This document shows, piece by piece, positions 8,733 to 11,996 of a stretch of 64,000 nt of DNA. The notes under the pieces were generated by a model. That model was not told the DNA's origin. It was given only the letters and a program-made list of their open reading frames with translations, and did no database searches. Location: positions 62,001 to 126,000 of the forward strand of contig NZ_VVIP01000094.1 in the NCBI RefSeq assembly GCF_009650435.1, read 5' to 3'. Position 1 is the first letter of the stretch; the number at the start of each line of letters is the position of its first letter. Source of the stretch: Foetidibacter luteolus (lineage in GTDB: Bacteria > Bacteroidota > Bacteroidia > Chitinophagales > Chitinophagaceae). The translations under genes were made by a program, and so were the position numbers.

Positions 8733-9911
8733 TCATCTTGTTCTGTTCCTCTCCACCACATATTCCAGCAACAATGCTTTATTGTAAGCCGTGCAATAGA
8801 AGTAATAATTAAGCCGGTTACAATTAAGAAATACTTGTTTGAACGGATTGGCCATTTGCGAACCTGCCCTTGCCTGGTAAAAAATAAAACGGTCATCCTG
8901 CCGCGTAAATGTTTCTATGGAGTTTATTACGAGCGGCGCCGGTTTTTGTCCAAGCCTTAGCAACGAAGTGTGCAGAATTACCTTATCCATAGGTATTTTG
9001 CATAACGCTAATTCATTGTACAGTTGGGCTACCAACTGGGGCTTGTAATTGTTGAGCGCCGGTATATCAAACCTGCCCATCAACCTGGCAAGGTGATACA
9101 GAATAACCGGTCTTCTTACATAGTACGGGGCAATGTAAGCACCCTGCCGCAGGTGTTCCTGGTTACTGAGCATGGAGGATGCCAGGTGTATTGTGGCGGA
9201 ATCGTACCTGTTGAGCGGTATGTTGTTGGCAAGCGCAAAATACAGCACATTGGTATGAACGCAGAGGTCAAAATCGCTGTGCATTTTTTTGCCCAGGTAA
9301 GTATTATAAGCAGGTACCCCGCTGTATTTTTTAAACGTGCTTTTGTTATTTCTAAACCTGGTATTGGCAAAGCTGTCAATAAGGTTTTTCGCAAGCCGGT
9401 TAATACTGTCGTTTTGGTTGAGCAGGCCCATAAGTATCAGTACCGTGTCGTCAGCATCTTCGGCGGTGGAAATATGGCTGGTCAAATGCTGCGCCAGCAG
9501 CGTATGTGGCATGATAGGTTTACCACGCGGCCAGAAGAAATACAGAGGCTTGCCATCTTTATTCTGAAAGTATGTGTAAGCTTGTTCAGCATTTTGCAAA
9601 ACCTGTAGGGCAAGTTGTAACTGCGGGGCTGAAAAACTGTTGGTTACTGATTGCAGCGTAAAACTGATTAAGCCGGTAAAGAAAATGCTGTTGTCGGGCC
9701 GGTTATTGGGCGGAAAGCCTGCAAAATGCCTGCGGGTAGGGAAACTGCCGGCGTAAAACTCACCGCCACCTGCTGTTACCTGTTCTTCTTTAATATCCCG
9801 CAGCAGCCTGGTGATAATGGTTGAATCCGGCTGCAGCGTTTGCGCAAAACTGCCCTGGCAGCAAACAAAAATTAGTAAGGCGGAGAAAAGGCGCATGGCA
9901 GTTTCATTCAT
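8733..9911 (-). CDS. Secreted, possibly alpha/alpha-toroid protein with DxDD motif
   Basis: The product is 392 residues. The first 24 (with MRLFSALLIFVCCQGSFAQ) are a signal peptide. The remainder is mostly helical, with short repeated helix patterns such as LQLALQVLQNAEQAYTYF and LCVHTNVLYFALANNIPLN. At residues 151-156 it reads EDADDT: a D-x-D-D-T motif as used for proton-initiated cyclisation by class II terpene cyclases of the squalene-hopene type. The N-V-L-x-x-A-L pattern also recalls toroid proteins. It lies 6 bp downstream of one class I isoprenoid-synthase-like gene and after a second, so a shared isoprenoid pathway is plausible. Against this: the signal peptide would place it outside the cytoplasm, family QW motifs are not evident, and one motif can occur by chance. 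Start: ATG 9911, with ATG 9896 as alternative. Confidence 0.5.
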   Translation of the reverse strand: MNETAMRLFSALLIFVCCQGSFAQTLQPDSTIITRLLRDIKEEQVTAGGGEFYAGSFPTRRHFAGFPPNNRPDNSIFFTGLISFTLQSVTNSFSAPQLQLALQVLQNAEQAYTYFQNKDGKPLYFFWPRGKPIMPHTLLAQHLTSHISTAEDADDTVLILMGLLNQNDSINRLAKNLIDSFANTRFRNNKSTFKKYSGVPAYNTYLGKKMHSDFDLCVHTNVLYFALANNIPLNRYDSATIHLASSMLSNQEHLRQGAYIAPYYVRRPVILYHLARLMGRFDIPALNNYKPQLVAQLYNELALCKIPMDKVILHTSLLRLGQKPAPLVINSIETFTRQDDRFIFYQARAGSQMANPFKQVFLNCNRLNYYFYCTAYNKALLLEYVVERNRTR

Positions 9912-9917
9912 GTTGGC

Positions 9918-10904
9918 TTAAATATACATCAGTTGTTTAAGCCATTTTACCTGCACCCGCCACCTGTCTGCATCGCATACCAATTCATTACGTTGTGCAA
10001 GCCGCCAATCGTTTTGTAGCTGTTCTTTATTTTGTTGGTAAATAAGCTTGTTTAGGGCAACAAACGTCATGGCAAACAACATCTGCGGCCGCCGCATGTA
10101 TCGTTTTACCTGTTGCCGGGGTAAGCATAACGAGCAATGTTGGGCTTGTTGCAGCAATGCATCGTACTGTTGTTTGTAGTAGGTCTTTAAATCCCGCAGG
10201 TCGCTGTAATTGTGTACCAGCGTGTAAATGTTCTTTTCCTTGTCTTTGTGGGCGTCAAATATATCGTTGCTCAACTGCAGCAGGGCGCCCGTGTTGTAAA
10301 CCAGTTCCTGTATTTGCCTGTTAATCGGCGCTTTAATAGCGGAGTAATAAAACAGGAGGGATGAGCCACCTTTTTGCCTGGCCAGCACCTGGTTGGTGTG
10401 CAGGCTAATACCGGGGCTTTCCTGCAGTTGCGAGCCCGCCTGTGCAGCAAACACCTGGGTGGAGATTTCCTGGAAAAAAGCTACATCCGGCACGGTACTT
10501 ATTATTTCGCGGCCAAAATGCAAAAATGCATGCTGCATCAAAGTATCTGGAACGGCATTAAAAGGGTCACTCATCAGTTGCTTTATCCTTTCTTCACTTA
10601 GCTGCTCCACGTCAAAAAAATCGTCAAAGAAAGGCGTTATCACACCCAGCAGGGTAAGCAATCTTTTTTCGTGGGCAGATAGCTGCCGCCCATGCAGCCG
10701 GGCAAAACTGTTGCCGATAACAACAGGAACATAAAGGGCGTAGTAGTTAAAAACTTTGTGTTTCAGGTAATGGTCAAGACTGGTGCCCCAGCTTTTTTCA
10801 AGCTGCTCAATTTCAGGAAGGATATTTTGATGAAAATAGTGTTGCTGTTCTTGCCGCTCTTTTTTAAACGACCGTATTTCCGGATACAACATTAAAATAT
10901 TCAT
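9918..10904 (-). CDS. Class I isoprenoid-synthase-like protein, copy 2
   Basis: The product is 328 all-helical residues from ATG 10904 (an in-frame TTG lies 9 bp upstream). It has the hallmarks of the class I isoprenoid synthase fold: an aspartate-rich DDFFD at 94-98, a conserved RQKGGSSLLF at 176-185 resembling the K-T-x-S-L segment of prenyl diphosphate synthases, and NDIFDAHKD at 213-221. The last has the exact spacing of the NSE/DTE metal-binding triad, with Asp in the second and third positions. Two metal sites binding a prenyl diphosphate are therefore expected. Whether it makes, cyclises or transfers a prenyl chain cannot be told. The paralogue at 11004 has both motifs at the same residue numbers. 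It is not a standard IspA/GGPPS, whose DDxxD is followed by an arginine pair. No signal peptide. Confidence 0.65.
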   Translation of the reverse strand: MNILMLYPEIRSFKKERQEQQHYFHQNILPEIEQLEKSWGTSLDHYLKHKVFNYYALYVPVVIGNSFARLHGRQLSAHEKRLLTLLGVITPFFDDFFDVEQLSEERIKQLMSDPFNAVPDTLMQHAFLHFGREIISTVPDVAFFQEISTQVFAAQAGSQLQESPGISLHTNQVLARQKGGSSLLFYYSAIKAPINRQIQELVYNTGALLQLSNDIFDAHKDKEKNIYTLVHNYSDLRDLKTYYKQQYDALLQQAQHCSLCLPRQQVKRYMRRPQMLFAMTFVALNKLIYQQNKEQLQNDWRLAQRNELVCDADRWRVQVKWLKQLMYI

Positions 10905-11003
10905 ACTTGGCAATCGTGGCTTTAAGCAAAAAAGGATAAATGAAAGTAAGTTATTTGATTGAAAATTATGCTGTTGCGGCTACTACAATTTTAGTGATGC
11001 CTG

Positions 11004-11996
11004 TCAACGGTATTTGCTTAGCTTTTTAATGCATTTCAACAGTTGCAGGCGGGTGGGCCAGCGCTCCATGTCAATAACAAGTTCTTTCCTGGTGGCTTCT
11101 TTCCATGGTACCGGTTTGCCTCTTTTTTGCTCAATAAGCCTAAACTGGTTAAACGCAACCAGCGCATACCCATGAAAGCAGGCAAAGCGGTTAATTAACC
11201 GGTCTTTATTTTTTGTGCTGGCATTTGTTTGCATAATAAGGGCAACCAGCTTTCTCCATTCAGCCAAAAAAAATGTTTCTGCCTCATCAATACTCTTCGT
11301 ACGTTGTATATAGGTTTGCACCCCTGCCGGAACATCTTTGTACACATCGTACGAGTCGTTTACCAATTGCCCCAGGTAGCCGGAGTAATGGATAACCGCT
11401 TTTTCGGCCTCTGTCCAATCTTCATCCATCAGGCTGGCGAACATTAAAGAGGTGTTGCCGTTTTTCTCGCGGGAAATTTCAATAATTCTTCCTGTAGATA
11501 TTCCCGGGCTCAGTTGCTGTAAAGAAGCAGCCTGCCATTCTATGGCTGTTCTTAATTGTTGTTCATATGCCGCGGATGGTGGGTTTTGCCGGTGCAGTTC
11601 TTCATTCAGCCGTAGTATCATATTGGTTTTGGGCGAAATGGGCAGGTTGTCAAGCTTTAAATCCAGCAATTGCAAAAGCTGGTCAGCGTTCCAGTTTTCT
11701 TCGTCAATCAGGTCGTCGCACAGGCTCGACATAGCGCTCACCACCGTAAGCCGCCAGTTTTCCTGTGGTGTAATACTGCGGTTTTTAAGCAAAGCAAAGT
11801 TGTCAGCGCCGCCAAGCACCGTAAAGCAAGGGTAATAAATCAGTACTTTTTTTCTGTCTGCCTTGTTTAGCCGGTAACCCAGCTCTGTTTCATAGCTGTT
11901 GATGAATGGTTCCAGGTGCTGCGCTATAAATTTCTTCTGCCGCTGCAGGGCGGTATAATATTCAAAAAAGTAGCCAGCAAGCTGCAGGTAGTTCAT
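11004..11996 (-). CDS. Class I isoprenoid-synthase-like protein, copy 1
   Basis: First gene of the three-gene minus-strand cluster, 330 residues from ATG 11996 (TTG 12005 is an alternative). Metal-binding motifs are DDLID at 94-98 and NDSYDVYKD at 213-221, with REKNGNTSLMF at 176-186 between them. It aligns with the next gene without a net gap over this span: both share a YY in the first third, FALL/FARL, a region ending E-x-x-R-L-T before the aspartate motif, and a basic C-terminus with W-x-x-x-L-x-x-L. Divergence between the two is high outside the motifs, which suggests two different activities or a heterodimer rather than recent duplication. It is transcribed away from ffh; 99 bp separates it from the next gene. 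A substrate-binding role for prenyl diphosphates is inferred from motifs only. Confidence 0.65.
   Translation of the reverse strand: MNYLQLAGYFFEYYTALQRQKKFIAQHLEPFINSYETELGYRLNKADRKKVLIYYPCFTVLGGADNFALLKNRSITPQENWRLTVVSAMSSLCDDLIDEENWNADQLLQLLDLKLDNLPISPKTNMILRLNEELHRQNPPSAAYEQQLRTAIEWQAASLQQLSPGISTGRIIEISREKNGNTSLMFASLMDEDWTEAEKAVIHYSGYLGQLVNDSYDVYKDVPAGVQTYIQRTKSIDEAETFFLAEWRKLVALIMQTNASTKNKDRLINRFACFHGYALVAFNQFRLIEQKRGKPVPWKEATRKELVIDMERWPTRLQLLKCIKKLSKYR

Follow-up and report, generated by a model that had tools for sequence, protein, structure and literature searches.

The window analysed here is a 64,000-nt stretch of Foetidibacter luteolus DNA (contig NZ_VVIP01000094.1, positions 62,001 to 126,000) that carries three adjacent minus-strand genes, which we call A, B and C. 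We consider it moderately probable that the cluster is a split class I/class II terpene-cyclization module, in which A and B would be non-canonical class I isoprenoid synthases and C a stand-alone, exported class II enzyme. This reading is carried by the predicted fold of B, the conservation of aspartate motifs throughout the A/B family, the profile match of C to drimenol synthases, and the coupling of A/B-type genes with C-type genes in related genomes.

Gene A (330 aa) runs from 11996 to 11004 and is followed, after a 99-bp gap, by B (328 aa, 10904 to 9918) and, 6 bp further on, by C (392 aa, 9911 to 8733). A first-pass annotation of the window had given the coordinates, strand and reading frames of these genes correctly, with the ATG codons of A, B and C at 11996, 10904 and 9911. 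Its motif numbering, counted from Met, also held. In A, DDLID occupies residues 94-98 (11703-11717) and NDSYDVYKD residues 213-221 (11334-11360, inside GYLGQLVNDSYDVYKD); in B, DDFFD (10611-10625) and NDIFDAHKD (10242-10268, inside GALLQLSNDIFDAHKD) occupy the same residue numbers.

Predicted fold of the A and B proteins

A and B are genuinely related by descent (24% identity across 309 aa, E 2e-27), and the equal numbering of their motifs is therefore inherited rather than a product of chance. The closest record, from Chitinophagaceae bacterium DXS, is 55% identical to B and keeps the A-B-C gene order. None of the Pfam or NCBIfam models passed its cut-off for the window proteins, and other members of the family matched only weakly, with sub-cut-off matches to PF00348 in 9/41 and to PF03936 in 6/41. 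Such proteins may already be labelled by NCBI, in generic terms, as class 1 isoprenoid biosynthesis enzymes.

The first-pass annotation had placed A and B in the class I isoprenoid synthase superfamily, outside any standard family, and had named absence of the class I alpha-helical bundle as grounds for rejecting that placement. An AlphaFold2 (AF2) model of B, built from six sequences, predicted this all-helical bundle with high confidence (predicted local distance difference test score, pLDDT, 86; predicted template modelling score 0.87), and put DDFFD at the C-terminal end of helix 76-97. Together with the failure of curated models to reach their cut-offs, the prediction bears the placement out. 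In comparisons made with VIA-align, the best match to the B model was the class I diterpene synthase Sat1646 (Z 17.9, root-mean-square deviation 3.5 over 260 residues), followed by the class IB synthase 6loo (17.3), BjKS (16.9), MoeN5 (15.7-16.6) and farnesyl diphosphate synthase (16.2); prenyl diphosphate synthases generally scored about 16, and 952/1000 chains reached Z 8 or more. The model thus lets us assign the predicted fold of B confidently to class I. Because rows within one Z unit count as tied, and the class I subfamilies all score within about 2 Z units, structure cannot choose the subfamily.

The same scores bear on an alternative that would make A and B prenyltransferases of the acceptor or head-to-head type, resembling MoeN5 or squalene synthase. 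They would join a prenyl group to a lipid, and C would cyclize or modify that lipid in the periplasm to yield a meroterpenoid. MoeN5 is in the top structural tier, dehydrosqualene synthase was Foldseek rank 1 for B, and the closest single-domain class II precedent, the merosterolic acid synthase MstE, uses a meroterpenoid. However, a tier that spans every class I subfamily gives MoeN5 no special standing, and no acceptor pathway is conserved beside the genes. We regard this alternative as rather unlikely.

Gene C and its coupling to A and B

The first-pass annotation had described C as an exported protein with a DADD sequence. The DADD was confirmed, and by eye C begins with a Sec-type signal, MRLFSALLIFVCCQGSFA/Q; the candidate signal peptide comprises residues 1-23 (9843-9911), a hydrophobic N-terminus up to SFA/Q, although Met6 may be the true start. 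The mature protein would have ~370 aa. A signal-like hydrophobic segment was also seen, by eye, at the N-terminus of most Chitinophagaceae homologues of C.

The DADD lies at residues 152-155 (9447-9458). Among 38 C homologues, D152 and D154 were present in 38/38 and D155 in 36/38, and nearly all had the motif [DE]DxDD[TS]; N221, D237, Y264, Y272, H273 and R276 were likewise invariant. When a profile of these homologues was compared with the whole PDB, drimenol synthases were the sole matches, at E 7.4e-4 with 32 sequences and 2.7e-5 with 38 (alignment A7). The alignment placed LPDDLDDT of the C profile on FPDDLDTT, which holds the catalytic DxDTT of drimenol synthases. The middle Asp of DxDTT is essential in AsDMS (PMC9128629), and AstC uses Asp273 as the acid and Asp271 as the base, with N324 and Y361, each of them essential, holding the acid (PMC13244436). 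Two of the invariant residues of C, N221 (9249-9251) and Y264 (9120-9122), align at matching spacing with the Asn of VAINVLY and the Tyr of RYY in drimenol synthase. We infer that they correspond to N324 and Y361 of AstC, which would make them candidates for positioning the catalytic acid. Judged by this alignment, C carries in its DADD the motif of class II cyclases, a significance that the first-pass annotation had overlooked.

The AF2 model of C points the same way. Drimenol synthases filled Foldseek rows 1-10 and scored Z 11.3-11.7 in VIA-align against 9.9 for the next family, for what is a low-confidence model. Sequence profile and model agree that C is a putative class II beta-domain protein, with the model counted as support only.

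In its beta-domain, in the register of DxDD with DxDTT and in its Asn and Tyr, C resembles the HAD-fused drimenol synthases (AsDMS, 9mhs/9m7d; PMC9128629) and AstC (PMC13244436). It differs from them in having a predicted signal peptide and no HAD domain; Pfam gave no match to a HAD phosphatase domain in C, and the drimenol synthase match covers the beta-domain only. Any class I-type chemistry would instead come from the separate proteins A and B. MstE, which PMC13244436 cites as a monodomain class II terpene cyclase, is a single beta-domain enzyme, as C is predicted to be, but C differs in its predicted export and in its genetic coupling to genes of the class I type.

Two C homologues (L128 and L130) have DSDC and DADC as their class II motif and no signal peptide. 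The F. luteolus genome also has a second, unlinked C paralogue with DDADDT (G000:C42:47772-48908; L085:9646-10932), which adjoins housekeeping genes.

We compared genomes to assess how closely C follows A and B. Homologues of A/B were found in 101/296 genomes of the Chitinophagaceae, the host's family, and in 11/395 sampled elsewhere in the phylum (3 of those 11 being own-family). Homologues of C were found in 62/296 genomes of the Chitinophagaceae, some beside A/B genes and some alone. A/B homologues were present in 53/62 genomes with C versus 48/234 without it (Fisher p 3e-21, uncorrected for kinship), and in 28/29 C-bearing genera (p 7e-13, from a hand tally of genus labels). C is a conserved neighbour of A/B homologues: the genes are adjacent in 25 genomes, mostly in tandem and sometimes tail to tail (as in G014). 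On the A/B tree, where A and B themselves fall in different, old clades, linkage with C requires at least 4 changes, and adjacent pairs occur on at least 4 branches. Co-occurrence in genomes and genera, adjacency and repeated linkage on the tree make a joint function of A/B and C likely. No canonical squalene-hopene cyclase scored above cut-off in the 11 genomes tested, so C is not simply a companion of such an enzyme.

Outside the C-linked clades, A/B-type genes have other neighbours, identified by eye as genes for a peptide release factor, an aldehyde dehydrogenase and EF-4/LepA, and this setting resembles housekeeping synteny. Genes for UbiA-type prenyltransferases were noticed near two A/B-C pairs (L094:7753-8682 and L039:919-1812); the second sits with a TatD-like hydrolase and recalls an ebo-type cluster, by eye only.

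These distributions, along with the profile match, also bear on whether C is an alpha/alpha-toroid protein exported for some other purpose, for example to act on carbohydrates, with the DxDD serving another reaction and only an indirect link to A/B. GH105 hydrolases reached Z 9.7 against the C model, which is a poor one; export would suit a glycan enzyme, and some genomes have C alone. However, a profile that matches drimenol synthases alone in the PDB, sets the DxDD on their catalytic motif and recovers the expected Asn and Tyr speaks against this view, as does the presence of A/B in all but one C-bearing genus, and we consider it unlikely.

The plus-strand genes that flank the cluster resemble recN and ffh, as identified by eye. 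Promoter and terminator scans gave only chance-level signals, the RNA family search found none, and no relatives were found in viral contigs and plasmids. Matches of C and A obtained with phmmer (4rgp, 3ksg) were taken as chance, as was a match of B to PF11756 (17.6 bits, below its cut-off of 25, in 1/41 members).

Aspartate motifs of the A/B family

We aligned 41 A/B homologues and numbered positions on B without its Met. E78, D93, D97, K177, Q209, D213, D220 and D310 were invariant, and D94, N212, D216, K219, T227 and R304 were conserved in at least 90%. In the DDxxD motif the first and last Asp were invariant and the second was kept in 90%. Loss of both aspartate motifs from homologues would have spoken against the first-pass annotation; both are kept in close homologues of A/B. 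With regard to an effector triad and pyrophosphate sensor, the family conserves the basic residues K177 and R304. The R-x-K-x-G-x-[ST]-S-L segment proposed to be shared by A and B fits REKNGNTSL of A exactly, whereas B has RQKGGSSLL and thus a different ending from the proposed S-L; of this segment only the Lys is invariant in the 41 homologues.

The second motif had been interpreted as an NSE/DTE triad with Asp substitutions, and this interpretation was not upheld. NSE/DTE was found in 10/15 canonical terpene synthases from the same taxonomic family versus 0/41 A/B homologues. The motif has instead the form of a second Asp-rich motif, GxxxQxx[ND]DxxDxxxD, present in 36/41, with Asn replacing the first Asp in most. 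A Lys lying 36 residues upstream of the first Asp of the GxxxQxx[ND]DxxDxxxD pattern, counted after its [ND] position, is invariant. A profile of the family matched octaprenyl diphosphate synthases in the PDB (E 0.015) with the Lys and DDxxD in register, and most of the 22 PDB chains listed were prenyl diphosphate synthases; adding very distant relatives to the profile weakened its PDB matches. When the profile was compared with one of the prenyl diphosphate synthases from the clade itself, the match was weak (probability 9.7%), with the second motif in register; against a profile of canonical terpene synthases there was no match. In remote members of the family (L004, L005, L117-L119, L122-L124) the second motif is a plain DDxxD. 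The family pattern, the register with octaprenyl diphosphate synthases and the plain DDxxD of remote members make it more plausible that the second motif descends from its Asp-rich counterpart, the second such motif, in trans-prenyl diphosphate synthases.

Three of the remote relatives (L122:9202-10443, L123:9232-10494 and L124:6200-7441), from other families of the phylum, are proteins of ~413-420 aa with an N-terminal extension, DNxxD as the first motif and GxxxQLxDDxxDxxxD, and represent another unnamed class I group.

With trans-prenyl diphosphate synthases (PF00348; IspA, octaprenyl) A and B have in common the fold, as predicted, the DDxxD, and the Lys before and Gln inside a DDxxD-like second motif. 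This likeness raises the alternative that they are atypical members of that group, perhaps heteromeric, extending an allylic diphosphate with isopentenyl diphosphate, and that C acts downstream or is unrelated. The family profile retrieves such synthases first, and the A/B pair recalls heteromeric polyprenyl synthases. However, in most members the second motif starts with Asn where these synthases have Asp, and the motifs that bind isopentenyl and allylic diphosphates are missing: neither GGKRxRP nor an RR following DDxxD was found in any of the 41 homologues (0/41 for each), whereas RR was found in 17/17 canonical synthases of the clade. That these substrate Arg motifs are missing from all 41 argues against chain elongation by A and B. 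The host genome already has two canonical synthases, and in most relatives there is just one gene of the A/B type rather than a pair. We rate this alternative as quite unlikely.

Among terpene synthases, the canonical bacterial class I enzymes (Sat1646, BjKS; PF19086/PF03936) are like A and B in the predicted all-helical alpha-domain fold and in DDxxD; A and B differ in their prenyl-synthase-type second motif, in lacking NSE/DTE and in matching no family above cut-off. The F. luteolus genome encodes one such canonical enzyme (PF19086) at another locus (G000:C4:72401-72964; L149). Non-canonical class I terpene synthases have been grouped as IB, IC, ID, IE and IF (PMC11234867), and A and B resemble these in combining a class I fold, as predicted, with a sequence invisible to family models, the IB enzyme 6loo being close to the top of the structural comparison. 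The class IB motifs DYLDNLxD and DY(F,L,W)IDxxED were not found, other residues occupying the motif windows of 37 A/B homologues, and of the class ID set of D(N/D), ND and RxxKD, as defined in PMC11234867, no conserved RxxKD follows the ND in A/B. A and B retain DDxxD and differ from classes IB and ID in lacking the IB pair and the ID RxxKD.

It is very improbable that either or both of A and B have become catalytically dead or regulatory class I relatives, since A, B and almost every homologue keep the metal-ligand Asp residues, which is unexpected for dead enzymes, even though the second motif departs from canonical forms and one distant copy has no DDxxD. That copy (L120:9829-10821) reads FEGFF in place of DDxxD and is apparently decaying, in a genome that retains a homologue of gene C.

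A proposed pathway and its significance

From the computed fold of B, the conserved motifs, the relationship of C to class II beta-domains and the gene coupling, together with the signal recognised by eye, we infer the catalysis, substrate, step order and product of a module formed by A, B and C. A and B would be cytoplasmic, single-alpha-domain, non-canonical class I isoprenoid synthases that take a prenyl diphosphate from housekeeping synthases and bind it via Mg2+ on DDxxD and [ND]DxxDxxxD. Removal of the diphosphate would give a lipophilic isoprenoid that is cyclized, condensed or hydroxylated. C would cross the inner membrane as a stand-alone class II beta-domain cyclase, in which N221 and Y264 would position D154, the middle Asp of DxDD, to protonate this lipid at a terminal double bond or epoxide and bring about ring closure. 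The end product would be a cyclic isoprenoid. In the Bacillus sesquarterpene route, a class IB enzyme supplies the substrate for a class II cyclase; by analogy, the order of a class I-type and then a class II step would be alike here, whereas the second step would be extracytoplasmic.

Several observations weigh against this proposal. The product of cytosolic A and B has to get to periplasmic C by a route that is unexplained. The Foldseek E-values for B were not significant (best 1.3e-3) though its Z-scores were high, and the AF2 model of C, built from two sequences, was poor (pLDDT 46). Some C homologues are unlinked to A/B, and 9 genomes have C with no detected A/B, so C can act elsewhere. 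In one outgroup family (f13) the C homologues begin at the mature domain without a signal peptide, and export is therefore not essential to the C family.

In the literature collection that was searched we found no paper on these genes, on an exported terpene cyclase, or on such a combination with export. By sequence, the parts of the cluster belong to two known superfamilies, but neither family in the window passes a curated model. Terpene genome mining that relies on family models consequently misses both families, despite their presence in 101 and 62 of the 296 sampled genomes.

If our reading of A, B and C is right, the cluster would add a non-canonical class I subclass and a stand-alone class II beta-domain family, and C would possibly be the first example of a terpene cyclase that has a signal peptide. 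We also put forward, tentatively and with some doubt, a two-compartment pathway in which an unnamed class I subclass in the cytosol removes diphosphate to make a membrane-soluble isoprenoid that an exported single-domain class II cyclase finishes in the periplasm, giving the Chitinophagaceae new envelope lipids. With its alpha and beta domains working as products of separate genes, the cluster would also offer a natural example relevant to the origin of the fused terpene synthases of plants and bacteria.

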